A stretch of 23,537 nucleotides of DNA from a virus, in IMG/VR virus record IMGVR_UViG_3300022538_000051, positions 1 through 23,537 of that record. One strand, 5' to 3'. Of this stretch, positions 1,909 to 14,654 are shown piece after piece (positions within the stretch are counted from its first letter, which is position 1; every line of letters begins with the position of its first letter). The position numbers were made by a program, and so were the translations under genes. A model generated the notes under the pieces. It was given only the letters and a program-made list of their open reading frames with translations. It had not been told where the DNA came from and did not search any database.

Positions 1909-2154
1909 CTAGAAATACCTCTTTGTTCCTGCTGCTTTTCGTTTACGGAACTCGTTGTACTCTTTAAGTGCCTGTCCTACTTCTTTCTTGGAATACTTCC
2001 TCTGCGGAACAGGCTGGCTTAATTCCTTTTTAGTTTTCTCCGTCTGCCATTCGACAATTTCCCGATACTGGTTCCTGTCCATATCCGCAGCACCAGGGAT
2101 TAAGATAGTCCTTTCCCTATCGCCTACTTTGACTTTGAATCTTGAATCAACCAT
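1909..2154 (-). CDS. Hypothetical basic protein, 81 aa
   Basis: An 81-residue, highly charged protein with an N-terminal beta-like segment (FKVKVGDRERTILIPG) and a helical, Lys- and Arg-rich C-terminal half. Its start overlaps the end of the 2124-2735 gene by 31 bases, and the ribosome site (AATAGGGATTT) is weak, so translational coupling is likely. Its end meets the convergent plus-strand island at about 1912. No family is recognised. Confidence 0.6.
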   Translation of the reverse strand: MVDSRFKVKVGDRERTILIPGAADMDRNQYREIVEWQTEKTKKELSQPVPQRKYSKKEVGQALKEYNEFRKRKAAGTKRYF

Positions 2155-2735
2155 AAATCCCTATTCTTTCCTTTCCTCATTGTTTTGTAAGTCTTCATAA
2201 GTTCTTTATTCACTGGTAGCTTAAATCCGTAAGGGACTCCTGTTTTAGTTTGGCAAACAGCACTACCCCTTGAAATCTCAACCTTACACCCCATTCCTTT
2301 TGCTATTCCAGCCCAGAACTCCACACCACCCTTCTCTCTCTCGTATTCTTTTGTCGTTATCATGTCCACACCATACATTCGGATATAGTTATATCCCTTG
2401 TATAAAGCGTAGGCTATCATATAACATATCGTAGAGGTAAAGAACTCAGTCCCGAATCTCTCCACGATTCTCTTGTAAGGATACCTTTTCGTCTTGATTC
2501 CCTTGACTTGGTGTAAACTGATAATGGGGAAATCTGCGTCCTTTAAGTGCTCAATATCAAACTGTATATCCCCATAAGGGTCTAATCTGGTATCGGACAT
2601 GAATAACTTATCCATTTTTCTACACTTCCTGAACCCTCGATTAACACCCCACACCTCAGCATCATAAGGACACTGATACCCAGTTGAACCCATACCCAAG
2701 AGAATTACGGTCTTTTCATTTTTCTTAGCAGTAAT
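2124..2735 (-). CDS. Rossmann-like phage protein (MptE/DUF115-like), probable ATT start
   Basis: The visible protein carries KTVILLGMGSTGYQCPYD, then EVWGVN, LYKGYNYIRMYGVDM and KGGVEFWAGIA. This is the layout of a phage Rossmann-fold family related in style to MptE/DUF115 proteins, often annotated hypothetical and sometimes found near sugar-modification genes. The first ATG (2699) removes the first beta strand (KTVILL) and has no ribosome site. The frame is open upstream to a TGA, and its only codon well placed after a perfect AGGAGG (7-base spacing) is ATT at 2735-2733. That gives about 203 residues starting (M)TAKKNEKTVILLG. The frame and family resemblance are clear; ATT initiation is inferred. 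Confidence 0.7.
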   Translation of the reverse strand: MTAKKNEKTVILLGMGSTGYQCPYDAEVWGVNRGFRKCRKMDKLFMSDTRLDPYGDIQFDIEHLKDADFPIISLHQVKGIKTKRYPYKRIVERFGTEFFTSTICYMIAYALYKGYNYIRMYGVDMITTKEYEREKGGVEFWAGIAKGMGCKVEISRGSAVCQTKTGVPYGFKLPVNKELMKTYKTMRKGKNRDLWLIQDSKSK

Positions 2736-3118
2736 TGCTCAGCCTCCTCTAAAACTCTTTCCTTGCTAGGCAACCGCCTACTCCCACGATAAACCTTACG
2801 TTTCTGGAACTTAATTCCTAGCTCTGCCTCTGCCCTTTTTATTGTTAGATAGGGCAAAAGGCTTTCCAGTAAGTTCAATGCCTTACGGGAGGTTAAAATA
2901 AGTTGCCATTTATCACGATTATTGTCATGTGCCTTATTGTGCCAAATATAGCCATCGAAGGAAAACTGTATTTGGCTAATAATCCACTCATTAGTATTAC
3001 CAATGGAAACACATAATTGGCGTTCAATCCTACCATTCGCCCTTTTTGTATTCCTTATGGTGATACAACCCTCGCCATCGAAAAATCCAGCGAAATAAGC
3101 TAAATCCGTTTTATTCAT
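2705..3118 (-). CDS. LAGLIDADG homing endonuclease, 137 aa
   Basis: A single LAGLIDADG motif is visible at residues 8-17 (YFAGFFDGEG) followed by CITI. The later part matches the family (KWQLILTSRKALNLLESLLPYL). With one motif in 137 residues it should act as a homodimer that makes a double-strand break at a long DNA target and so spreads its own gene. It is free-standing, with no intron or intein evident in the neighbours. Its last 30 bases overlap the extended 2124-2735 gene. The ribosome site is weak (AAAAGGAA about 12 bases upstream). The plus-strand promoter at 3122 abuts its start. Confidence 0.9.
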   Translation of the reverse strand: MNKTDLAYFAGFFDGEGCITIRNTKRANGRIERQLCVSIGNTNEWIISQIQFSFDGYIWHNKAHDNNRDKWQLILTSRKALNLLESLLPYLTIKRAEAELGIKFQKRKVYRGSRRLPSKERVLEEAEQLLLRKMKRP

Positions 3119-3121
3119 TAC

Positions 3122-3150
3122 TTGACATTATTTCCTTTTTGTGGTATAAT
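3122..3150 (+). promoter_or_regulatory. Consensus sigma-70 promoter for leaderless moron gene
   Basis: Perfect TTGACA (3122-3127) and perfect TATAAT (3145-3150) are separated by 17 bases. The predicted start site, 7 bases after the -10 box, is the A of the ATG at 3157. No ribosome site exists between promoter and gene. It is the strongest promoter match I see in the window. Confidence 0.9.
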
Positions 3151-3156
3151 GTTATT

Positions 3157-3339
3157 ATGAAAGTTAAAACAACTGAGCAAACTATTGAGATTGTATTATC
3201 TGTGAAGGAGATTAAAAACATCAATGCCGGAGAAACCTTGGTGGGAAAACCAACTACTGAATTTTTATCCCCCTTGGGTAATAAGATGTTAATAGTTAGA
3301 AAATGGGTAAAAGCAGATGAAGAAATACCTGTGGTTTAG
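3157..3339 (+). CDS. Small hypothetical protein, 60 aa, probably leaderless
   Basis: The ATG at 3157 is 6 bases after the TATAAT box and coincides with the expected transcription start. An upstream in-frame TTG at 3139 overlaps the -10 region and is unlikely. The 60-residue protein begins MKVKTTEQTIEIVLSVKEIK and ends KADEEIPVV. It is mostly beta-strand-like, with no cysteine and no membrane segment. The TAG overlaps the end of the convergent pyruvyl-transferase gene by 4 bases. It is a single-gene plus-strand insert in a minus-strand region, as expected of a moron. Function unknown. Confidence 0.75.
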   Translation: MKVKTTEQTIEIVLSVKEIKNINAGETLVGKPTTEFLSPLGNKMLIVRKWVKADEEIPVV

Positions 3340-4394
3340 TTGATAGCCGTTCTTATTGTCTTTAAGTTGTGCTGTGTTATCACCCATAATTTATATTTAA
3401 CGTCCTCTATCCTTTCCGTGAAGTCTTTGTAGTTGATTTGATTAACCGCCTGTACTATTCTGTCCTTCAAGTCGGGGTCGAAGATAAAGATACCCCTTGT
3501 TATCCCAATATCATTAAGAAAGAATGTTACCTTGTCATGGCTTATTATCGGTACAAAGGGATTACCCACCCCGAAAGGAATCATCACACCATGCCCCCTC
3601 ATGCCTATCGTTAGAGGACAACCTGAGTAGAAATCCATTATTTCTTGGGGGGATTTGCAGTAGAGTTTCACCACATCATATTCCACGCCAGCTTTATCAA
3701 GATACTTCGCCATCCCATAGTCGGCATTCCCCCTTACTATGTGCAAAACTAATCTGATTCTGAAACCTTTGAGTTCCTTCAAAGCTCCAGCTATTGACAT
3801 CAAGATTTTCTCGTCCCTACCACCAAATCTGTGACAGGGAGCATCCATCGCTGGCTGAAGAGCTATCTCATTCCTTCTTAATGTTTTGTCACTAGGATAG
3901 ATGTACGATAATAAGGTTGCAGGGTCAGGTTGGAATTTCAACTTCTCGACTAAATCCGAATCAAGGTATTTGGATAACTTATCTATACTGCCCGAATTAC
4001 GCAGGCTGAAGAACGCACTTTGCCTTACAAGTTGGTTTATTTGGGGTTTGAATAATTTATTGAACTCTACTTGTCCCCAGAACCTGCTATCGCCAATACC
4101 AAAAACTATGATAGGCTTCTTGATCTGTTCTACCTGCTCTACTGTTAGGGGGCAATACCACCCAGAGGCGTATTGAGAGCCGTGCAAAGTACCAGCGTGT
4201 AAAAGCCCACCTCCACCTATTACAACAGCATCAACATTTTTGTTAATGTAGTCAATGATGTATTCTGGGGGTTGCTTAAGATAAGCATTATACTTGCCCC
4301 AACAACCCTCACCTATTAAATCCTCAACAACCTCAGTGGCAATCGTATCGCCGGCGTTTCCCCTGTCAAACACCCCGAAATGATAATACTTCAT
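3336..4394 (-). CDS. Polysaccharide pyruvyl-transferase family protein, 352 aa
   Basis: Motifs of the WcaK/CsaB family are in order: RGNAGD (11-16), VVIGGGGLLH (57-66), VFGIGDS (97-103), a GMRGHGVMIPFG block near 264-275 and ISHDKV near 284-289. Members add a pyruvate ketal from phosphoenolpyruvate to a sugar, or act as related GT-B glycosyltransferases. The length is typical and no domain is missing. It is the last gene of the glycan cassette, and its ATG overlaps the methyltransferase stop as ATGA. In a cassette making an activated nonulosonic acid, it could modify the acceptor glycan or itself transfer sugar. The family is sure; the substrate is inferred. It is soluble, with no signal peptide. 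Confidence 0.9.
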   Translation of the reverse strand: MKYYHFGVFDRGNAGDTIATEVVEDLIGEGCWGKYNAYLKQPPEYIIDYINKNVDAVVIGGGGLLHAGTLHGSQYASGWYCPLTVEQVEQIKKPIIVFGIGDSRFWGQVEFNKLFKPQINQLVRQSAFFSLRNSGSIDKLSKYLDSDLVEKLKFQPDPATLLSYIYPSDKTLRRNEIALQPAMDAPCHRFGGRDEKILMSIAGALKELKGFRIRLVLHIVRGNADYGMAKYLDKAGVEYDVVKLYCKSPQEIMDFYSGCPLTIGMRGHGVMIPFGVGNPFVPIISHDKVTFFLNDIGITRGIFIFDPDLKDRIVQAVNQINYKDFTERIEDVKYKLWVITQHNLKTIRTAIN

Positions 4395-5086
4395 CTCTTA
4401 ACCACGACATGATGAGACCCGTATCTATTCGTAACTCTTAATGCGGGCTTATACAGAAAGTATTCCTCAACTGCCTCCCGAATACCAGGGAACGCAGGTA
4501 CATCGTAATCGTGGAACATCATTATCCCCCCTTCCACTAATCTAGGGTAGAAGAACTCACAACAATCTTTAGCCCCCTGATATAAGTCGCAATCCACATG
4601 GACAAAACAGAACCTCTTATCCTTAGCTTCATGGAGGGTGTCCTTGAATAACCCCTTATAGAACTTCACTAACCCCTCTTTATCAAAATCCTCAAGCAAC
4701 ATCTTGACCTTGGCAACTGATAGGTCTTTCTTCGGATCCCACCATTCGGGAAGGTCATGTTCAGGGTCAGCGTCAGGCATAACATCGAAAGTGTCAAATA
4801 AATGAATGGTTTTCCTTCCATCGAAAAATCTCATCAGTAGACGAGCCGTAGCACCGAAGTAAACTCCTGCTTCTGCTATATCGCCCTCTAGTTTACCACA
4901 CGCCCTTGCACAGTTTTCTATCTGCATAACATCAGACATGGCTTGGGGCATGATAACTATACAGTGCCCATTCCCGGGACTATCTAAATAAACCTCCCTC
5001 AGCCTATCAGTGGGGGAGATGGCTCTAGGAACCGCACTAAAGGGTTTTGAGGCAATGGCTCTCTCTAAATCTTTGCCTTTAAGCAT
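4391..5086 (-). CDS. TylF/MycF-type O-methyltransferase, 231 aa
   Basis: A class I SAM-dependent methyltransferase. Motif I is GDIAEAGVYFGAT (68-80), followed by HLFDTF (95-100), HVDCDLYQGA (163-172) and the metal-binding FHDYD (191-195) with the family ending FPGIREAVEEYF. TylF/MycF enzymes methylate sugar hydroxyls with a divalent metal. The overlap with NeuB upstream (8 bases) and the pyruvyl-transferase downstream (4 bases) implies coupled translation and a shared pathway. The likely role is O-methylation of the sugar made by the cassette or of its acceptor. The family call is firm and the acceptor is inferred. Confidence 0.9.
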   Translation of the reverse strand: MLKGKDLERAIASKPFSAVPRAISPTDRLREVYLDSPGNGHCIVIMPQAMSDVMQIENCARACGKLEGDIAEAGVYFGATARLLMRFFDGRKTIHLFDTFDVMPDADPEHDLPEWWDPKKDLSVAKVKMLLEDFDKEGLVKFYKGLFKDTLHEAKDKRFCFVHVDCDLYQGAKDCCEFFYPRLVEGGIMMFHDYDVPAFPGIREAVEEYFLYKPALRVTNRYGSHHVVVKR

Positions 5087-5897
5087 TTCTTAACTTCTCC
5101 TTTACTGGCAACTCGGAGGGGTAAACCCTCTTGACACCATCCCCCATTGCCTTCTCTAAAGTTCTTATGTCTTTAACTAACTTCCTTAACCCCTGCGGTT
5201 CTACTGAAGCTGATTGGTCAGTTCCCCACATGGAACGGTCTAGCGTGATATGCCTTTCAACCATCTCCGCACCTAACGCAACCGCAGCAATCGTTGTGCT
5301 CAACCCTACCTCATGCCCTGAGTACCCAATCTTGCAACCATACCTTTTCTTTAAGGCAGGTATCATTAGTAGATTGAGTTCTTCGGGCTGAGCAGGATAT
5401 GTAGAAGTAGAGTGTAGTAAAACAATATCTTTCCCCAAAATCTCAACTGCACGGTCTATCTCCTCTATTGTGCTCATGCCTGTGGATAAAATTGGTTGTG
5501 TCGTGGTATTTCTGGTAATGTAATCTAATAACTCATAATAAGTAAGGCACGCTGACGGGATTTTGATATAGGGAACATTGAACTCTGCCATGGAATCCAC
5601 GCTAGGTATGTCCCAACAAGAGGCAAACCATTGGATGTGTTCCTTGCAATAAAGGTGCAAACAGTGATAATCGGACTTTCCGAACTCCATCTTCCTCTTA
5701 TATTCAATATAGGACATCTCGCCCCAGGGGGTTTCTCTTGGAATATCCCATTGACTCTTAGGAACTGCTAGTTCGGGAGTTCGCTTTTGGAACTTAACGA
5801 AATCGCAGCCACAATCCACTGCCACATCTATTAAGTCAAAGGCTTTTAGAATATCCCCGTTATGGTTAATACCTATTTCGGCTATTATTTTGACCAT
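5079..5897 (-). CDS. neuB: NeuB-type nonulosonate (N-acetylneuraminate-like) synthase, short form
   Basis: A TIM-barrel synthase that condenses phosphoenolpyruvate with an N-acyl hexosamine to give a nine-carbon sialic-type acid. Visible motifs: EIGINHNGD (7-15), VKFQKR (34-39), SCWD (93-96), YIKIPSA (110-116), LSTGMST (137-143), HSTSTYP (162-168), GYSGHE (191-196), ERHITLD (214-220) and GTDQSASVEP (225-234). The catalytic barrel is complete. The protein ends at 272 residues and lacks the 60-70 residue C-terminal SAF (antifreeze-like) domain of classic NeuB, SpsE and PseI, which closes the active site in the dimer. The start overlaps the cytidylyltransferase gene by 13 bases. The exact sugar (Neu5Ac, legionaminic, pseudaminic) cannot be told. 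Confidence 0.92.
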   Translation of the reverse strand: MVKIIAEIGINHNGDILKAFDLIDVAVDCGCDFVKFQKRTPELAVPKSQWDIPRETPWGEMSYIEYKRKMEFGKSDYHCLHLYCKEHIQWFASCWDIPSVDSMAEFNVPYIKIPSACLTYYELLDYITRNTTTQPILSTGMSTIEEIDRAVEILGKDIVLLHSTSTYPAQPEELNLLMIPALKKRYGCKIGYSGHEVGLSTTIAAVALGAEMVERHITLDRSMWGTDQSASVEPQGLRKLVKDIRTLEKAMGDGVKRVYPSELPVKEKLRNA

Positions 5898-6550
5898 AGC
5901 TTCATCGTCTGTTCAGCCAGCCAGAAAGTAAACGGGGTATCAACCTCCACGCAAGCCTCTTCGGGCATCACATAGAATCCCAACCTTCCGTAGATGACAC
6001 ACTTCTTTTCTAGGAAGTGTTTGGCATTAAAGATATAAATAGCTCCGTTCTCTACAAAGTCTGTCAGTTTGTCTTGTCTCCTAGGTCTTCTACCAAACGG
6101 GTCATAGTTTACTGGGAACGGACACTGCAACCCCAACGCCCATATAAAATTCTTAAATGTCCCTACACTTATCAGGGACTCGTATTTCCCCTTCTCGTAA
6201 ACATCGAGGGCTTCGTTTATAAAGATTTCGTGCCTCAACGGAGAAGTGGGTTGTAGCATCATTACTGTATCATACCCATCTACTTTGCCCAGCACATCAA
6301 TGACAGCTTCGGCAGCATGGGCAGAATCGGTAGCCATTTCCAACGGCCTATCTATAACTTCCACACCCAACGATTCACTTATTGTTTTAATCTCGGCATC
6401 TTCCGTAGATACCACAAACCTATCTAGGTTCGATTTCTGGGCAGCCTCGATTGTATATTGAATCATCGGCTTCCCGTTCAACATCTTAATGTTCTTCCGG
6501 GGGATACCTTTGCTTCCCCCTCTCGCTGGTATTACTCCCAGTGTTTTCAT
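5885..6550 (-). CDS. neuA: CMP-nonulosonate (sialic acid) cytidylyltransferase
   Basis: Activates a nine-carbon acidic sugar with CTP. Motif I is GVIPARGGSKGIPRKNI (residues 5-21), followed by VVSTEDAEI, MLQPTSPLR (98-106), ENGAIYIF (167-174) and VEVDTPFTFWLAE near the C-terminus, the last two contributing sugar and metal binding. At 221 residues it has the usual size of single-domain NeuA proteins. I choose the ATG at 6548-6550, which begins MKTLGVIPARGG as family members do. The purine site AAAGGAG is only 2 bases away, and an in-frame GTG at 6601 would add 17 residues unlike the family. It is the first gene of the cassette, behind a structured leader. Confidence 0.92.
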   Translation of the reverse strand: MKTLGVIPARGGSKGIPRKNIKMLNGKPMIQYTIEAAQKSNLDRFVVSTEDAEIKTISESLGVEVIDRPLEMATDSAHAAEAVIDVLGKVDGYDTVMMLQPTSPLRHEIFINEALDVYEKGKYESLISVGTFKNFIWALGLQCPFPVNYDPFGRRPRRQDKLTDFVENGAIYIFNAKHFLEKKCVIYGRLGFYVMPEEACVEVDTPFTFWLAEQTMKLWSK

Positions 6551-6617: not shown

Positions 6618-6652
6618 ATGTTTCAGTGACACCAACCCTCCTTTCCAAAGGT

Positions 6653-6676
6653 GGGGGTGATTGAAGGCTCACCCCC
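6653..6676. terminator. Strong hairpin between head genes and glycan cassette
   Basis: GGGGGTGA (6653-6660) and TCACCCCC (6669-6676) form a perfect 8-bp stem with an 8-base loop. It lies 14 bases after the stop of the 6691-7473 gene in transcription direction. On the minus strand it is not followed by a T run, so it is at best a partial terminator or an RNA-processing or stability element that sets the ratio of head to cassette mRNA. An adjoining AAAAGGCTTTT palindrome (6677-6687) adds to the structure. Confidence 0.45.
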
Positions 6677-6690
6677 AAAAGCCTTTTGCT

Positions 6691-7473
6691 CTAGTCTAGT
6701 TGGAGCATGAAGTAAACGCAGCCATAGCTAGATGTGTTACACATGATTCCATGACCTGCTCTTTGCGGTGAAGTAGTGGTCGCTCCACCAGTCTCAGTAG
6801 AAGTAATACCACCTGTTGCAGTAAAGTACACATCCTTATCCTGTGGGCCAGTACCAGGCCAAGTAGTAGTGTAATGCCCCATAGTTGGGCCACTTACCTT
6901 GCCCCAGAAGTAGTAGCCACTGGTGATGGAGCATATTGGCTTATAGCAAACAAAAGTCTCGTAATTGGATGCCTCAGCACCAGCCGACACAACATTGCTG
7001 TATGGGCTTGTCATAGCATCCACCGCACCATCGGTAATAGCCACATCTAGTGGTGCATTTAAGGTGATGTAGAGACTTGCAGTAGTACCAACCGTAGAAC
7101 TAATAATCCTACGAGTCTGCCTTTCTGAAACACTTCCTCCATAAAAGTGGGCTAACCCACCCTCATAGAAATTTACGGGTCTGTTGGTAGGCGTATTGGT
7201 GTCGTCTATGCGTATCACAACGTCGCCTACGGCAGCAGTATCACTATACAAGTCACAGGTAGCCATATCACCAGCCACAAGGTCAGCAACCACGTTGGCA
7301 TTTACAACTGCATACTCAATAGTTCCAGTCATAGCTGCACCCGCCTTACACATTCGGTACCTACTACCCCACTCATCTATACCCAGAGTACCTATCAATG
7401 CTGGTTTGTCAGCAGCAGCATACTGCTTGTAGATTGCCGATGCTTCTAACTGCATAATATAAGGAAAACTCAT
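6691..7473 (-). CDS. Phage head structural protein downstream of capsid (decoration-like), 260 aa
   Basis: A 260-residue protein rich in Gly, Ala, Thr and Ser. Its N-terminus reads MSFPYIMQLEASAIYK, then ALIGTLGIDEWGSRYRMCKAG, and further on PYSNVV and YYFWGKVSGP. It resembles, from memory, uncharacterised phage proteins encoded right after the major capsid gene and thought to be capsid-bound or decoration proteins. Gene order (capsid, 63-residue gene, this gene) supports that. AAAGGAG lies 7 bases upstream of the ATG. It is the last head gene before the glycan cassette and would be an obvious candidate acceptor if the cassette decorates virions. The structural role is inferred from position and composition. 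Confidence 0.7.
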   Translation of the reverse strand: MSFPYIMQLEASAIYKQYAAADKPALIGTLGIDEWGSRYRMCKAGAAMTGTIEYAVVNANVVADLVAGDMATCDLYSDTAAVGDVVIRIDDTNTPTNRPVNFYEGGLAHFYGGSVSERQTRRIISSTVGTTASLYITLNAPLDVAITDGAVDAMTSPYSNVVSAGAEASNYETFVCYKPICSITSGYYFWGKVSGPTMGHYTTTWPGTGPQDKDVYFTATGGITSTETGGATTTSPQRAGHGIMCNTSSYGCVYFMLQLD

Positions 7474-7678: not shown

Positions 7679-8554
7679 TTAACTTGTGTACAGGTCAGCA
7701 GGTGCAGCAGCGTCAATCGTAATAGGGGCACCCTGACTGTCATCTAACTCGAAACAGCCATAGTCTGACACAACCACAACTTCCCACGCCCTGAGTGAAG
7801 CATCTCGCTCTCGCTCAGTATAGGGAGCTACTGATTGCACAGTACACATAGCCGACTTGGATGCGATGCACCCGATAGCGTCATCGGTTCCGTCAGGTAC
7901 AATGTTCCCATCCTCAAAGACAGGGATTTGATTCATGGTCAGCTTCCAGAAGTCCCTTAACAAGTCCTCTGCGTAACCATGAGGTATAGGGTAGGCAGCC
8001 ATAGGTGTTAGTGTTATAGCAGCTACCAAGTCTCTGATGGCGTACGGGTGATGGACTATGAATATTGGTTTGGGGTATTTGTTTATCTTGGCAAAAGACA
8101 TATAGGAGCCAAGTTTTGCTATAGTCCATGTAGTGTTAGCAACACCAAGAGTAGTTCCACCATTCAACGCAGTGAACAGGGCAATTATGTCCGTATCCAT
8201 CTTGCGTGCCATAGCATCGCCCATCTGCCGTCCTATAACACGGAACAAATCGGGTTGAGATTGCCTTACTAATTTGTCAGTAAGGATAACCTTCAAACCG
8301 ACTTCGCCCGTTGTCAGGTCAACAGTGGACATACCAATAGCCTTGGAGGTCGTGATGTCCAAACCGTCTGTCAGTGCATCAGCCGACATCTGCCCTACTT
8401 TGGGTACTGTTATCTGCTTCTCGCCTGGAACCAATGTGAATTTCTCCACAAGGTTCACGCAAGGTGCAGAATGTTCAGCAGTATATCTACACTCAGCGAT
8501 AGCAATACGTTGTGCGTTCGCTAAGTTGGTTTCGCTTGCAATCTGAATTGGCAT
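7679..8554 (-). CDS. Major capsid protein, HK97-fold type, 291 aa
   Basis: A 291-residue protein beginning MPIQIASETNLANAQ. Features fit an HK97-fold shell protein without a long cleaved N-terminal segment: an early beta region (QITVPKVG), repeated mention of TDKLVRQSQPDLFRVIGRQ and AMARKMDTDIIALF (spine-helix-like), IFIVHHPYAIRDL, and an acidic C-terminal beta region ending APADLYTS. The gene directly follows the scaffold-like gene, the canonical capsid position. A ribosome site AGGAGAATTAG precedes the ATG. The call rests on length, composition and order, plus general resemblance to phage capsid proteins of this class. Confidence 0.8.
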   Translation of the reverse strand: MPIQIASETNLANAQRIAIAECRYTAEHSAPCVNLVEKFTLVPGEKQITVPKVGQMSADALTDGLDITTSKAIGMSTVDLTTGEVGLKVILTDKLVRQSQPDLFRVIGRQMGDAMARKMDTDIIALFTALNGGTTLGVANTTWTIAKLGSYMSFAKINKYPKPIFIVHHPYAIRDLVAAITLTPMAAYPIPHGYAEDLLRDFWKLTMNQIPVFEDGNIVPDGTDDAIGCIASKSAMCTVQSVAPYTERERDASLRAWEVVVVSDYGCFELDDSQGAPITIDAAAPADLYTS

Positions 8555-9392: not shown

Positions 9393-12300
9393 CTATTTCA
9401 AATCAGGTCTTAATTCGTAAAATCTATCTTGTTGTTCTGGGGGTAAATCAGACCACTTGTTATAACCATACGCCTGTGCGTATGAATCCTGTAATGCCTT
9501 CACAGCATCACCTTCATTTTTAAGGGCGTATTGGCTGAATATCATCTGTCTTATATCAGCGTTCCTTATAGCCCGTTCTACTTGAACAGCATAAGGTGTA
9601 GGTATCCCCACAATCTGCCCTATGCCTTTAGCGTAATGCTCTATTGTTCTTACTAAATAGTCAGTATCTACGTCTTTCAACGGGTCTCTGCCTTGTTCTA
9701 ATAAGTTGACAGTCCCCGTAATTGCGTATTGTAATTCTCTGAGTGTGGAGAAAATGGGACTTGCCTCGGCTGGGAAGGGTTCATCGGTAATCCAGCCATA
9801 AGCTGATTGTAAAATCTGCCCAGCAGCAAGTAAGTAGTTAGCAGGCCCTAGTATGGCAACTCTCATCTGGTGTTCTTTTTTCCACTGGAAAGCATCGGAC
9901 ACAAGTTGGAACATCATGGGTAATACCCACCACGCCAGAAGAATGTTTAATGTATTTCTACCCTTCGAACCACGCCCCGCTTTAAGATTTCTGGCACTAT
10001 CAGCAATTAAACGGTAGTATTTATTCGGCTGACTTTGGAACATAGTAAATAACTTACCAAACGAACCATGCTTTCTTAGGGCAGCCATATCTTCTAGTCC
10101 GAATGAAGGCTGGCTTCTTTTAGTGGCTATCTCAGCATGAGTTATGGCATTTGGTATTTTCTGTTTCTTCATTGATTGATACACAGACCATGCCCCAGGT
10201 TGGGTAACAGCCGTATCAACTTTATGTATCCCTAGCATTAAAAGGTCTCGCCAGTTCTTTGAATTGGATAATCTACCCGCAACATCCTTTTCCTTAACTA
10301 GCCGAACATCACGCTCATGCCCTCTCCCCCACCTTTCTGAAAAGTAGCCTGACAGTTCCTTCATTTCCTTGATGCTTGCCATAGGATGTTTGTAAAAATC
10401 AGCAACACCTGTAAAGAAGTCCTTAATAGGCATCGGTTGATAAGTTAAATAAGCTGGTAATGATAACGCCTGCTTAAAACTAACAGCGATCTTCACCCCC
10501 AAAGCAGCGAGAGTAAAGTGTCCTCTTAGCTTATCAACGCCACCTACAATTAACGCCCTATCTATACCATCTCTGGCTATATCATTCAGGTGTCTGTCTA
10601 AATGACTTAGAATATCCTGTCCATGATACTGTCTTATGGCGGTTCGGACATCTGTATTACCAAACACCATTCGGGCTTCCTTCATAGAAGTTGCAAACGC
10701 CTTGAAGTGCTCCATCTGAATAACATGGCGAACCCAAACTTGGGTAGCACCATTAAACCGTAATGGTATTCTATTTCTAACCCTCGCCTTTAGGCTATTG
10801 TTTGTAACGCCAGCGTATCTATAATTATTCTGTGCCGTTAGAATATGCTCATAATAACTAGCTTCTAAGTCTCTATTCAGGGGTACATATTTAGGATTTT
10901 CAGGGAACGGGATATGGTATTTATTCTCAAAGACAGGCTTAATCGTTTTCCCATAGTTCTGAACATATTGATTAGAAAGCCAAGTGGCATATTGTAAGTC
11001 CTCTGCCGTCATTGAATCCTTGACAGCATTTATCATCTCGTCAGTCCACTTCATTCCAATCCTAAAAGTCTCGTCAAGTGTGGGGTCTTGCAGTTCCAAG
11101 TATTTCTGTATAATTTGGTCTTTGGTAAGGGATAAAGTTGAACTCTGCCCTTCAGTATTAGCAAATGTACCCAGACTTATTTTCTCTCTAATGAGGCGAC
11201 CCAAGAAACTATTAAGTTCTCTTCTCCCCTTCACACCATATATTTCCTGTACCTTACTAGCAGTCTTTCCATCTACCCAATTTATTACACCCAACTGTTG
11301 TATGCTACGAGACGTATGTAGATTAAACCCAAGTTGGCTAAGCGGACTTTGGAATGGTTCAGATGCTTTATCAAACCTGCTTAACTTGTCCAATATATCA
11401 TCCATGCCATACTGCCAATTAGTTAAGAAGGATTTAGGCTTACCCTCCCTAGCCCACATATCTCTCGTGTCAATAGTTCCAGCACTAGGCTTTATGCCCT
11501 TGCCACCTGTTAGCGAGGCAATAACATCTTCTCGGACTTTGGTTATTCTTTCAAGCTCAGCTTCTCTTTCGGCAGCCCTCAAACCTCGTCCTGTTGCCTT
11601 TAGAGATTGAACTTCCCTTAAAGTATAAGCTAACTCGTCAGAGGACATACCCTTTAGTCCTGATACCTGTAGTATTTCGTTAGCTTCATCTGCTACTTCA
11701 AAGGGCATCTTGCCTTCCTCGGCAGCTTCTATGTTCTTTAATATCTCGGCTTTTACGTTCTCTCTTTCTAGGTTAGTATTGGCTTTAATCTCATTTAATT
11801 GTCTTTGGGTTTCTGCTGTGAACCTACCATATCTCATACCCGCAGCCTTGGCGGGTTTAATACGTCTTAATTCGCTTATTATTTGAGCCGTTAGGGTTTT
11901 CTGAGCTGCTTGCTCTGCGTATTTATCAGCCTGTGCTATTGCCTTTGTTAAGTCAGTTTCAGTTTTGACATTCTTAACCGCAGAAAGCATCTTGCCCTGA
12001 ACTTCTTTTGGTAGATTAGCTTTAGCATACTCTGTAAGTTGCTTTCTAGCATCCTCGTATTGTAACTTCTTAGTTGCCCATTGGGATTGCAGGTTGCGAA
12101 TAGCCTTAACTGGTTCTAGTCCTTCTACTGTGACCACACCTTCAGGGATTATACTTGTTACTGTTCCGCCTTCGGCTAGGGCGGTGGTTTCAGCAAACTT
12201 GCGATACTGGACCCCCCACACACCCTCATACCGCTCATAGGCCTTAGTTTCATAAAAGGGGTATCGTCTCTTTAAGGCTTCTGCCCCCCTTGTTGCCTGT

Positions 12301-14654
12301 GTCTCTGTTTTGTAGGTTGCTAGATGTCCAAATTCTTCTCCACTAGGATAAACCCTGTGTTCTGCCCACGGGGTTTCAGGTGTAGTAGTTTCTACTGCGG
12401 TTGCAGTAGGTTTTACTGCTTGTAGTTTATCGTAAACCTTAATAGCTTCGGGAGACATTTCACTTCTGGGCGGGAAGGCAATATTGTTCTCCTTTATGTA
12501 CTTCCCAACATCTATTAAAGCCCTTGCGGAAGCCAGACCTTTCTCCCTAGAAACGATATTTCCTAGTGTTAGTTGCCCCTCTCTCATATGGGATTCACCT
12601 ACTATTAAGGGTTTACTCTGCGTGTCGGTTCTTACAAAAGCCTCACCCTCTGGAATCCCAATAGTATGAAGATGGCTGGGCAAAACTTCAGGAACTTGCT
12701 GTAATAGCACTTCACCTTGAGCTAAAAGCTGTTGCTGGACTTCTGGGGGCATTGGGATACCCTCAGTTACACCAGCCTCCAAGTCCTTAATACTATCCTT
12801 GAGATATGTAATCATCCTCTCTTGGGCAAGTATCTCGGATTTATCAGGCGCAGTAAAGAGTTTCGCCCTCTCTAAGCTAATTTCTTTCTGGGCTAGTTGG
12901 GTTTTAAGACTGTTAATCTCTGTTGCTGCCCCCGCACTAACAGCTTGGGGTATTGCAGCTTCGGGGGCTTCAATGCCACCTACAGCCTCAAAGAGTTCTT
13001 GTGCCTCTTTTGTGGCTGCCCATTCTGGGTCAGCAGCTTTAGTTAATGCAATAGCAGCCCCACCAACACTTAATTTAGCGACAACGACTCGCCATGCTTG
13101 CTCTACTGACATCTTGGCAATTGCTTCTGTTGTTTGCCCGATACTCCCCAAAACAGTTACCATAGCAGGTGATTTAGAGGGTTCTGCAAACTCCAATAAA
13201 ACCTTAATTAGTCGTGGAAGTGTTTGCTGGTGATAATAGTTTACAATCTCTGTGCCAACAGGCATCCTCGCTGATTGCTTTAGCATACTATCTACGACAC
13301 CTGCGATATGAGAAATAGCTTGCGGGGTAGCCTGAGTTGCTAAATGGGGATTAGCCCGTAAAACATCATCAATATATCGCAGGGTATATTTCTGGATTAG
13401 AGCCTCTGTATCTGCCCAAGTCGCAGCTTGAGCCTGTGTCCATGCCTTGCCTGCAATACGCCTTGTTATTTGTGATGGGGCATAACCAACGATTCTCTCA
13501 AAAGCCTCTAGGGGTTTTAATGCAATTTGGGCAACCTTAGCAACCCCTCCAGTTACACCTCCTGCTTGAACCGCAGGCTGTAACGCCTGGCTTACCTGAC
13601 CAGCAGCAGGTAGCATAGCAAGTGTTAATATTGGCATTACCCACTCACCGATAAATTGCTCACCTTTTGTAAGTGGCGTACCAAGTCCTAATTGCGGGGC
13701 GTTGTAGATATACTCAGGTGGCATAGTAGGAAGTGGTAATGTTTTCTTTAATTCCTCTTCGGTTATTGGGCCTATCGCTAAATCTTTCGTGGGCTTTTCC
13801 ATTAACAGATTAACCCAATCTTCAGGGTTGGTGATATTATGACTTGTAGCCCAATTCACTAAGGTATTTTTATAATCACTTATTCGCTGTTGCTCTGGTG
13901 TCATCCAGTAAAAAGGATTAAGGGGAATAGATTTCCATACTCCACTAAAGAAGCTTCTAATCTTCTGCCCTGCACTATCACTATAAGTTTTTATTTCACC
14001 TGTTTCAGGATTGATATACCCAAGTGGCTGCAAAGGGTTTCTTTCATCAATAATGGCATTGTTGGGCATTACTCTTAAACCCTCACCAATATCAATTCCC
14101 TCTTTGGGAATCTCAGTTATTGGTTCCACTTCAGGAGTTTCCTCGCTAACCTCTTCGGGCTGCTGGAGTTTATTAAACCAAAGGTCTATTGAAGCCTCTT
14201 GGTCGTCAGGGTTTAGATTAGCCCAATTACCGCCAACTTGTTTTAGCTCCCATTTAGCCCACTTCTCAGCCTCTTTTCTGAGGTCGTCCATTCGATCTTG
14301 TTCGGTTGCCTGTTCAACCTGCCTTACAACAGTATCAGCCCAAGCCCTACCAGACATTATTTGCTGCTTAATGGAAGATTCAGAAATAGGAATCTGGTTT
14401 GTCACGCCTAATAGCTGTAATTTCCTATTAGCCTCGTCTATCTCGTCAGCAGCAGAAGCACGTTGATAAGCACGGGCGAAATTTGCGGCTACTTGGGCGT
14501 TCAATGCCACTGCCTGCCCTTTATCCCTCGCCATCTCTTCTTTGCGTAAGCGGGACTGCGTAGCAAGTCTGTCTAATAAACTATCCGTCTTTTGACGTGA
14601 TATGTCGGACTCACGTTCAACTATGTCTGCTGTCTGATACCATTTAAGAGTCAT
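9393..14654 (-). CDS. Giant virion-associated (internal or ejected) protein, 1753 aa
   Basis: The largest gene in the window. Residues 1-180 are helical and charged. A hydrophobic segment (EWVMPILTLAMLPAAG) lies near 338-353, long helical and Ala-rich stretches follow, and a segment near 763-825 (RVYPSGEEFG to VWGVQYRKF) looks like a small beta domain. Lys/Glu-rich coiled-coil regions fill about 850-1100. The last 500 residues are mixed, with hydrophobic stretches such as LGVKIAVSFKQALSLPAYL and NILLAWWVLPMMF near 1570. Giant multi-domain proteins at this place after the portal are typically packaged in the head and ejected with DNA, or are large polyvalent proteins. No protease, lysozyme or polymerase signature is visible. 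Ribosome site AGGAGAAA. The coding call is certain and the role is inferred. Confidence 0.8.
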   Translation of the reverse strand: MTLKWYQTADIVERESDISRQKTDSLLDRLATQSRLRKEEMARDKGQAVALNAQVAANFARAYQRASAADEIDEANRKLQLLGVTNQIPISESSIKQQIMSGRAWADTVVRQVEQATEQDRMDDLRKEAEKWAKWELKQVGGNWANLNPDDQEASIDLWFNKLQQPEEVSEETPEVEPITEIPKEGIDIGEGLRVMPNNAIIDERNPLQPLGYINPETGEIKTYSDSAGQKIRSFFSGVWKSIPLNPFYWMTPEQQRISDYKNTLVNWATSHNITNPEDWVNLLMEKPTKDLAIGPITEEELKKTLPLPTMPPEYIYNAPQLGLGTPLTKGEQFIGEWVMPILTLAMLPAAGQVSQALQPAVQAGGVTGGVAKVAQIALKPLEAFERIVGYAPSQITRRIAGKAWTQAQAATWADTEALIQKYTLRYIDDVLRANPHLATQATPQAISHIAGVVDSMLKQSARMPVGTEIVNYYHQQTLPRLIKVLLEFAEPSKSPAMVTVLGSIGQTTEAIAKMSVEQAWRVVVAKLSVGGAAIALTKAADPEWAATKEAQELFEAVGGIEAPEAAIPQAVSAGAATEINSLKTQLAQKEISLERAKLFTAPDKSEILAQERMITYLKDSIKDLEAGVTEGIPMPPEVQQQLLAQGEVLLQQVPEVLPSHLHTIGIPEGEAFVRTDTQSKPLIVGESHMREGQLTLGNIVSREKGLASARALIDVGKYIKENNIAFPPRSEMSPEAIKVYDKLQAVKPTATAVETTTPETPWAEHRVYPSGEEFGHLATYKTETQATRGAEALKRRYPFYETKAYERYEGVWGVQYRKFAETTALAEGGTVTSIIPEGVVTVEGLEPVKAIRNLQSQWATKKLQYEDARKQLTEYAKANLPKEVQGKMLSAVKNVKTETDLTKAIAQADKYAEQAAQKTLTAQIISELRRIKPAKAAGMRYGRFTAETQRQLNEIKANTNLERENVKAEILKNIEAAEEGKMPFEVADEANEILQVSGLKGMSSDELAYTLREVQSLKATGRGLRAAEREAELERITKVREDVIASLTGGKGIKPSAGTIDTRDMWAREGKPKSFLTNWQYGMDDILDKLSRFDKASEPFQSPLSQLGFNLHTSRSIQQLGVINWVDGKTASKVQEIYGVKGRRELNSFLGRLIREKISLGTFANTEGQSSTLSLTKDQIIQKYLELQDPTLDETFRIGMKWTDEMINAVKDSMTAEDLQYATWLSNQYVQNYGKTIKPVFENKYHIPFPENPKYVPLNRDLEASYYEHILTAQNNYRYAGVTNNSLKARVRNRIPLRFNGATQVWVRHVIQMEHFKAFATSMKEARMVFGNTDVRTAIRQYHGQDILSHLDRHLNDIARDGIDRALIVGGVDKLRGHFTLAALGVKIAVSFKQALSLPAYLTYQPMPIKDFFTGVADFYKHPMASIKEMKELSGYFSERWGRGHERDVRLVKEKDVAGRLSNSKNWRDLLMLGIHKVDTAVTQPGAWSVYQSMKKQKIPNAITHAEIATKRSQPSFGLEDMAALRKHGSFGKLFTMFQSQPNKYYRLIADSARNLKAGRGSKGRNTLNILLAWWVLPMMFQLVSDAFQWKKEHQMRVAILGPANYLLAAGQILQSAYGWITDEPFPAEASPIFSTLRELQYAITGTVNLLEQGRDPLKDVDTDYLVRTIEHYAKGIGQIVGIPTPYAVQVERAIRNADIRQMIFSQYALKNEGDAVKALQDSYAQAYGYNKWSDLPPEQQDRFYELRPDLK

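Follow-up and report, generated by a model that had tools for sequence, protein, structure and literature searches.

A proposed swappable glycan module with nonulosonic acid genes beside the capsid genes of a phage

Introduction

What would a phage do with genes to make and activate a sialic-like sugar, set within its structural operon, and to what would that sugar be attached? The question arises from a 23,537-base stretch of viral DNA (hereafter the window), which is a complete IMG/VR virus record (IMGVR_UViG_3300022538_000051). On its minus strand, a neuA, a neuB, a tylF and a PS_pyruv_trans gene follow one another, with successive overlaps of 13, 8 and 4 bases. An initial annotation had described four overlapping genes of these families within a phage structural operon, and both the coordinates and the Pfam scores agree with this. 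I propose that the locus is a swappable phage glycan module whose nonulosonic acid is added to proteins of the virion, a reading to which I would give an even chance.

An insertion slot beside the capsid genes

Within the late head-tail operon, the cassette occupies a defined site, a slot with swappable contents. The survey covered 80 relatives of the window capsid protein (51–66% identical), and in nearly all of these about 80 related phages, the gene next after the capsid gene is a homologue of that at 7473-6691. In 57 of the 63 contigs possessing both this gene and a homologue of 2154-1909, the two are at most 30 bases apart, and the slot is empty. The other six (L281, L269, L251, L305, L308 and L025) carry inserts between these boundary genes; in the window, the insert is 4.5 kb long. 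The initial annotation had placed the cassette directly after the head genes; it is indeed beside them, but the conserved 7473-6691 gene intervenes. It had also ended the cassette at 3336, which proved too early, as a LAGLIDADG open reading frame (ORF, 3118-2705) follows, and then a gene whose product resembles glycosyltransferase family 42 (GT42, 2699-2124).

The insert of L269 consists of NeuA and GT42-like genes, that of L281 of NeuB, NeuA and GT42-like genes, and that of L251 of radical SAM, NeuA, B12 radical SAM, NeuB, cupin, methyltransferase and GT42-like genes. The survey of related phages for a cassette by the capsid genes, proposed at the outset, therefore recovers NeuA and GT42-like genes in the same slot of all three. 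In L027 and L028, a module of the same kind begins, and the contig end cuts off the rest. L305 (12059-19353) and L308, which seem to belong to one phage type, hold methyltransferase, cytidylyltransferase-like, SIS and radical SAM genes and a thiamine pyrophosphate (TPP)-enzyme pair, a module possibly serving another activated sugar. The insert of L025 is made of three structural-like paralogues. Radical SAM/SPASM and B12-binding radical SAM genes are interleaved with NeuA and NeuB genes in L251:5303-8080, L028:8090-10954 and L027:7893-8807.

GT42-like, methyltransferase, NeuA and NeuB genes also lie by the head genes in phages of other lineages (L002, L208 and L234, the last additionally with a sulfotransferase-family gene), whose capsid proteins show no detectable similarity to that of the window in the same searches. 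Since like modules are found by head genes in separate lineages, they point to repeated recruitment and speak against a host island as well as against misassembly. An origin as a host island across a prophage boundary is rejected, as in the sister contigs the same pair of phage genes flanks the module, and the locus is therefore a phage module, as initially supposed.

The fifth gene of the cassette

No sialyltransferase had been visible in the initial annotation, a statement that fails because of the GT42-like gene at 2699-2124. Its product has no Pfam or PHROG match, and single-sequence viral scans with this protein and with NeuA gave no matches; alignment-based scans were required. Relatives were first seen adjoining NeuA and NeuB in L002 and L021, and an alignment-based scan gave 95, of which 80 were kept. 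A profile of 34 members, compared to all PDB chains, matched nine sialyltransferase sequences with E-values of 4e-7 to 5e-4 (CstI, CstII and a lipooligosaccharide sialyltransferase), beyond which there were chance matches. With a 29-member profile (hmmsearch against PDB), nine out of nine matches were GT42 proteins (E 4e-8 to 3e-6), with no match outside this family, and the best ones align over one continuous stretch. The predicted structure of the intact sister copy in L251 has a predicted local distance difference test score (pLDDT) of 88 and a predicted template modeling score (pTM) of 0.82, and the top six matches of this model in a Foldseek search of PDB are all CstII chains (E 4e-6 to 3e-4, TM score about 0.5); its viral matches are unnamed or MptE-like.

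The family is about 15–18% identical to CstI and CstII. It keeps CstII Asn31, which aligns with the Asn conserved in a WGxN motif. The Pfam CST-I family matched none of the 34 members at E<=1, and PF01973 (MptE-like) is a weak match in three of them, with a best E-value of 0.017 that does not reach its cut-off. The homology to GT42 is thus distant, and together with the GT42-like modeled fold it makes the product a probable distant sialyltransferase, with a predicted activity. In L186, L187 and L189, around 10000-12700, three to four GT42-like paralogues per phage are found in tandem or clustered, which suggests several acceptors or chain extension.

In the window copy, ATG, GTG and TTG are all absent upstream of the conserved first strand. 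The upstream open frame encodes the expected first strand (TVILLGMGST), and an in-frame AUU is found behind GAGGAGG, within the end of the LAGLIDADG ORF (2699-2760, minus strand). The gene may use a rare start codon, be impaired, or contain a sequence error. The LAGLIDADG ORF is missing at the equivalent position in L251, L269 and L281, and has probably inserted where the transferase gene begins; a search against Rfam gave neither a group I intron nor any other RNA there.

NeuB and the likely sugar

NeuB matches PF03102 with 253 bits (cut-off 22), but consists of the catalytic domain alone, the C-terminal SAF (antifreeze-like) domain being absent. A C-terminal extension long enough for SAF is present in 1 of 96 viral relatives and, among the cellular matches listed, in 0 of 80. 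In the synthase of N-acetylneuraminic acid (Neu5Ac), the SAF domain supplies an Arg that contacts the N-acyl group. I aligned 19 viral relatives (41–62% identical), and residues E7, K35, H195, H216 and D227 are invariant across the resulting 20 viral copies; these are the equivalents of Neisseria NeuB Glu25, Lys53, His215, His236 and Asp247, which have catalytic roles. A quick tree places the window NeuB, with weak support, near L002 in a part where viral copies abound.

Among the matches listed, the nearest cellular copies (58–64% identical) are from Chloroflexi, Planctomycetes, an archaeal metagenome-assembled genome and many Streptomyces, the Streptomyces chromosomal copies being 58–61% identical to the phage protein. 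In the S. tendae locus L145, the NeuB gene comes after a CTP_transf_3 and HAD fusion, with DUF6716 glycosyltransferase and A-2_8-polyST genes near. Streptomycete walls hold teichulosonic acid based on 3-deoxy-D-glycero-D-galacto-non-2-ulosonic acid (Kdn), which is often methylated, and the biosynthetic cluster is SCO4873-4882 (PMC11481543, PMC13011467). A route from mannose-6-phosphate (Man-6-P) to cytidine monophosphate (CMP)-Kdn is described in the alga Prymnesium parvum (PMC6200933).

Because NeuB lacks SAF and, among the matches listed, has close relatives in what appear to be Kdn-type cell-wall loci, a Kdn-type product made from mannose or Man-6-P appears likelier than Neu5Ac. The absence of NeuC had initially been read as a need for a host-supplied N-acyl hexosamine. 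This is not supported for a NeuB of this type: the aldose would be mannose, and the missing NeuC would therefore be no gap. The cupin next to NeuB in L251 (D-lyxose isomerase-like) was considered as a mannose supply, but few viral loci have such a gene next to NeuB, and it is not counted as evidence.

The other enzymes, and gene co-occurrence

The other three proteins are clear family members. NeuA matches CTP_transf_3 (PF02348) with 81.7 bits (cut-off 22.6) and the CMP-Neu5Ac synthetases of PDB with an E-value of 6e-30. The TylF protein scores 77.9 bits against PF05711 (cut-off 23), and MycF/NovP-type enzymes are its relatives in PDB (E 5e-13 to 1e-10). The PS_pyruv_trans protein scores 81.4 bits against PF04230 (cut-off 25.3) and stays below the CsaB equivalog cut-off (46.7 bits, against 213.1); it contains an RGH motif and has a relative in the L002 cassette, and no PDB relative was found by sequence search.

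Searched with profiles within the available flank, NeuA is near 79 of the 99 viral NeuB copies. Conversely, NeuA or NeuB is near 15 of the 80 GT42-like loci, and near 14 of 35 when only those with at least 12 kb are counted. Associated GT42-like loci other than the search seeds include L208, L209, L216, L225, L229, L234, L251 and L263. In a named-phage collection, three records have a NeuB relative, none has a PS_pyruv_trans relative, and the full set is present in no phage.

Proposed mechanism

In the proposed pathway, the SAF-less NeuB would join phosphoenolpyruvate to a hexose that carries no acyl group (mannose or mannose-6-phosphate being the likeliest), yielding a nonulosonic acid of the Kdn type, which NeuA would activate with cytidine triphosphate (CTP). 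The GT42-like protein would then move the sugar from CMP to its acceptor. TylF may add an O-methyl group, and the PS_pyruv_trans protein may pyruvylate or extend the glycan. Because the slot is swappable and belongs to the late head-tail operon, the likeliest acceptor would be a virion protein (capsid protein, fibre or 6691-7473 product), and its modification would take place in the cytoplasm, in a manner akin to the O-glycosylation of flagellin by Maf. The 6691-7473 product is a possible head decoration protein; its fold prediction reaches a pLDDT of only 34.

More broadly, and with a likelihood that I would place somewhat short of even, several tailed-phage lineages would possess all that is needed to nonulosonylate proteins of their own virions (capsid, decoration or fibre), namely a SAF-less NeuB, a NeuA and a compact GT42-like transferase, and the post-head site would serve generally for the exchange of one virion-glycan module for another. 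If so, these phages bring a complete system to make, activate and attach a sialic-like acid, and could lay a negatively charged sugar coat on their own particles or on the host. The compact GT42-like proteins would form a new family, which Pfam and PHROGs leave unannotated, and would provide a means of transferring nonulosonic acids from CMP. Comparing filled and empty slots also makes the purpose of phage sugar genes testable, as a single insert sets carrier virions apart from those of non-carriers.

Several observations weigh against the nonulosonylation of virion proteins. At about 190–220 amino acids, the GT42-like proteins are short, and they score under every Pfam cut-off; CstII Arg129 is not kept, and the region of the catalytic His188 did not align. 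The window copy has no ATG start, its frame being open upstream to about 2738. Only three of the 99 viral NeuB loci contain a GT42-like gene, and most viral NeuB are therefore in other kinds of cluster; there is also a mild selection bias, since the GT42-like search patterns came partly from NeuB-adjacent loci (the seeds L002 and L021). As for the sugar, it is from its gene content that L145 would be the equivalent of SCO4873-4882, and the HAD phosphatase domain of the Streptomyces locus has no phage counterpart. Finally, among the matches listed, the closest cellular NeuB copies include some in apparent cell-wall polymer loci, and those GT42 enzymes whose function is known add sialic acid to lipooligosaccharide.

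These last two points also favor a different destination for the sugar, namely envelope glycans of the host, whose remodeling, in lysogenic conversion or to exclude superinfection, would change the phage receptor. Such glycans are classically modified with nonulosonic acids and by methylation and pyruvylation, and two strong sigma70-like promoters near the cassette drive small antisense genes, as in morons. The cassette however lacks genes for a flippase, a lipid carrier and an acetyltransferase, and lies within a late structural operon with no clear promoter of its own in a promoter scan; like modules are found by capsid genes in several phage lineages, and the L025 slot is filled by structural-like paralogues. 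The late-operon position, the lack of export genes and the recurrence by head genes favor the virion, and I consider host-surface remodeling the less likely of the two, although a serious rival. Both destinations had been put forward initially; glycosylation of one or the other is upheld as the likely purpose. That the whole module is functionless, either a decaying moron or an assembly artefact, is the least probable explanation, and a very improbable one: while the window GT42-like gene is without ATG and has a homing-endonuclease ORF ahead, and the module is missing from most related phages, the four genes upstream of it are all intact, their active-site motifs conserved, and both the slot and the kinds of genes recur across independent contigs.

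Two further alternatives concern the chemistry. The product could be Neu5Ac, legionaminic or pseudaminic acid, made from an N-acylated hexosamine of the host, and NeuB_NnaB and PseF are indeed the best NCBIfam matches. I judge this improbable, as both scores are far under the equivalog cut-offs (112.7 bits against 205.7 for NeuA and PseF); NeuB reaches only 242.5 of the 399.65 bits set for the N-acetylneuraminate synthase equivalog TIGR03569, and neither the Neu5Ac nor the pseudaminic acid synthase cut-off in NCBIfam. Nor does it have the SAF domain, and NeuC-like, aminotransferase and N-acetyltransferase genes were not seen in the slot. Slightly less probable again is that the PS_pyruv_trans protein is the real transferase and the 2124-2699 protein something else, such as an MptE-like kinase fold. 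Members of the PS_pyruv_trans family are thought to be GT-B-like in fold, and the weak PF01973 matches would fit, but the gene is absent from L251, L269 and L281, which all have the GT42-like gene, and the PDB profile and fold matches of the latter are to GT42 and not MptE.

Comparison with known systems

If L145 is its equivalent, the Streptomyces teichulosonic acid locus SCO4873-SCO4882 is similar to the phage module in its SAF-less NeuB and adjacent CMP-synthetase. It differs in serving a cell-wall polymer and in possessing a polyST-type transferase and a HAD phosphatase domain, where the phage has GT42-like, TylF and PS_pyruv_trans proteins. Campylobacter CstI and CstII are the sole PDB family matched by profile and the top fold matches of the 2124-2699 family, and CMP-donor synthesis is similarly encoded alongside; the phage proteins are however shorter and do not keep Arg129, and their acceptor is probably not lipooligosaccharide.

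Maf flagellin transferases (PF01973) have a CstII-like catalytic domain, use a CMP-nonulosonate donor and transfer nonulosonic acids straight onto Ser/Thr, a model of cytoplasmic protein O-glycosylation (PMC11339370). The GT42-like protein resembles them in this domain and in its predicted donor, but is without the N- and C-terminal Maf domains. The sps legionaminic acid pathway of Bacillus subtilis also builds a nonulosonic acid surface coat, using SpsE (NeuB) and SpsF (NeuA) (PMC7439481), but requires SpsM/C/D/G for its diamino sugar, of which the phage has none.

Amongst phages, Stenotrophomonas phage DLP4 carries a NeuB-family gene, which unlike that of the window is alone, in the lysis module, and with a transmembrane segment, no NeuA or transferase being reported (PMC6469090). 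This gene and its relatives were all that a search of the open-access literature on nonulosonic acid with phage or capsid, and on phage neuB, returned, which is not proof of novelty. Phage-encoded glycosyltransferases have been proposed for mycobacteriophage-type capsid glycosylation (PMC11256854), in that case without dedicated nonulosonic acid synthesis.

Gene boundaries and neighboring features

The coordinates of the features are listed in Table 1. Upstream of the cassette are TerS, TerL-like, portal-like, 1753-residue protein, scaffold-like and major capsid protein genes, followed by the 7473-6691 gene, and structural-type genes are also found downstream. The major capsid protein is 33% identical to that of Pelagibacter phage HTVC111P, and the 1753-residue protein has no Pfam family above cut-off.

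Table 1. Coordinates of the cassette genes and their neighbors in the window (aa, amino acids; MCP, major capsid protein).
Feature	Position	Strand	Length	Support or remark
NeuA-type CMP-nonulosonate cytidylyltransferase	5885..6550	-	221 aa	PF02348
NeuB-type nonulosonate synthase without SAF, probable Kdn-type	5079..5897	-	272 aa	PF03102
TylF-type O-methyltransferase	4391..5086	-	231 aa	PF05711
PS_pyruv_trans family protein, putative pyruvyl or sugar transferase	3336..4394	-	352 aa	PF04230
LAGLIDADG homing endonuclease ORF	2705..3118	-		PF00961/PF14528
GT42 (CstII)-like sialyltransferase-fold protein, cassette gene five	2124..2699	-	191 aa	Profile and fold searches
Conserved post-MCP gene, left slot boundary	6691..7473	-		Homologue after MCP in related phages
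Small conserved gene, right slot boundary	1909..2154	-		Family abuts 6691-7473 homologue
Major capsid protein	7679..8554	-		PF25209, E 1.6e-10; PHROG major head protein
Fibre-like gene	385-2	-		Runs off record end
1753-aa protein gene	9393-14654	-	1753 aa	Between portal-side genes and scaffold-like gene

The neuA ATG at 6550 is preceded by a Shine-Dalgarno sequence (AGAAAGGAG). Between the head genes and neuA, a GC-rich hairpin of 9 bp without T run (6652..6677, minus strand) is weak, with a z-score of -1.7. Two extended sigma70 promoters are found on the plus strand, at 3122-3150 (TTGACA-17-TATAAT, 12/12) and 1292-1320 (TTGACT-17-TATAAT, 11/12), each with a TG before the -10 element. Both are antisense to the late operon and feed small plus-strand ORFs (ATG 3157-3339, and about 1340-1471), which are moron-like.

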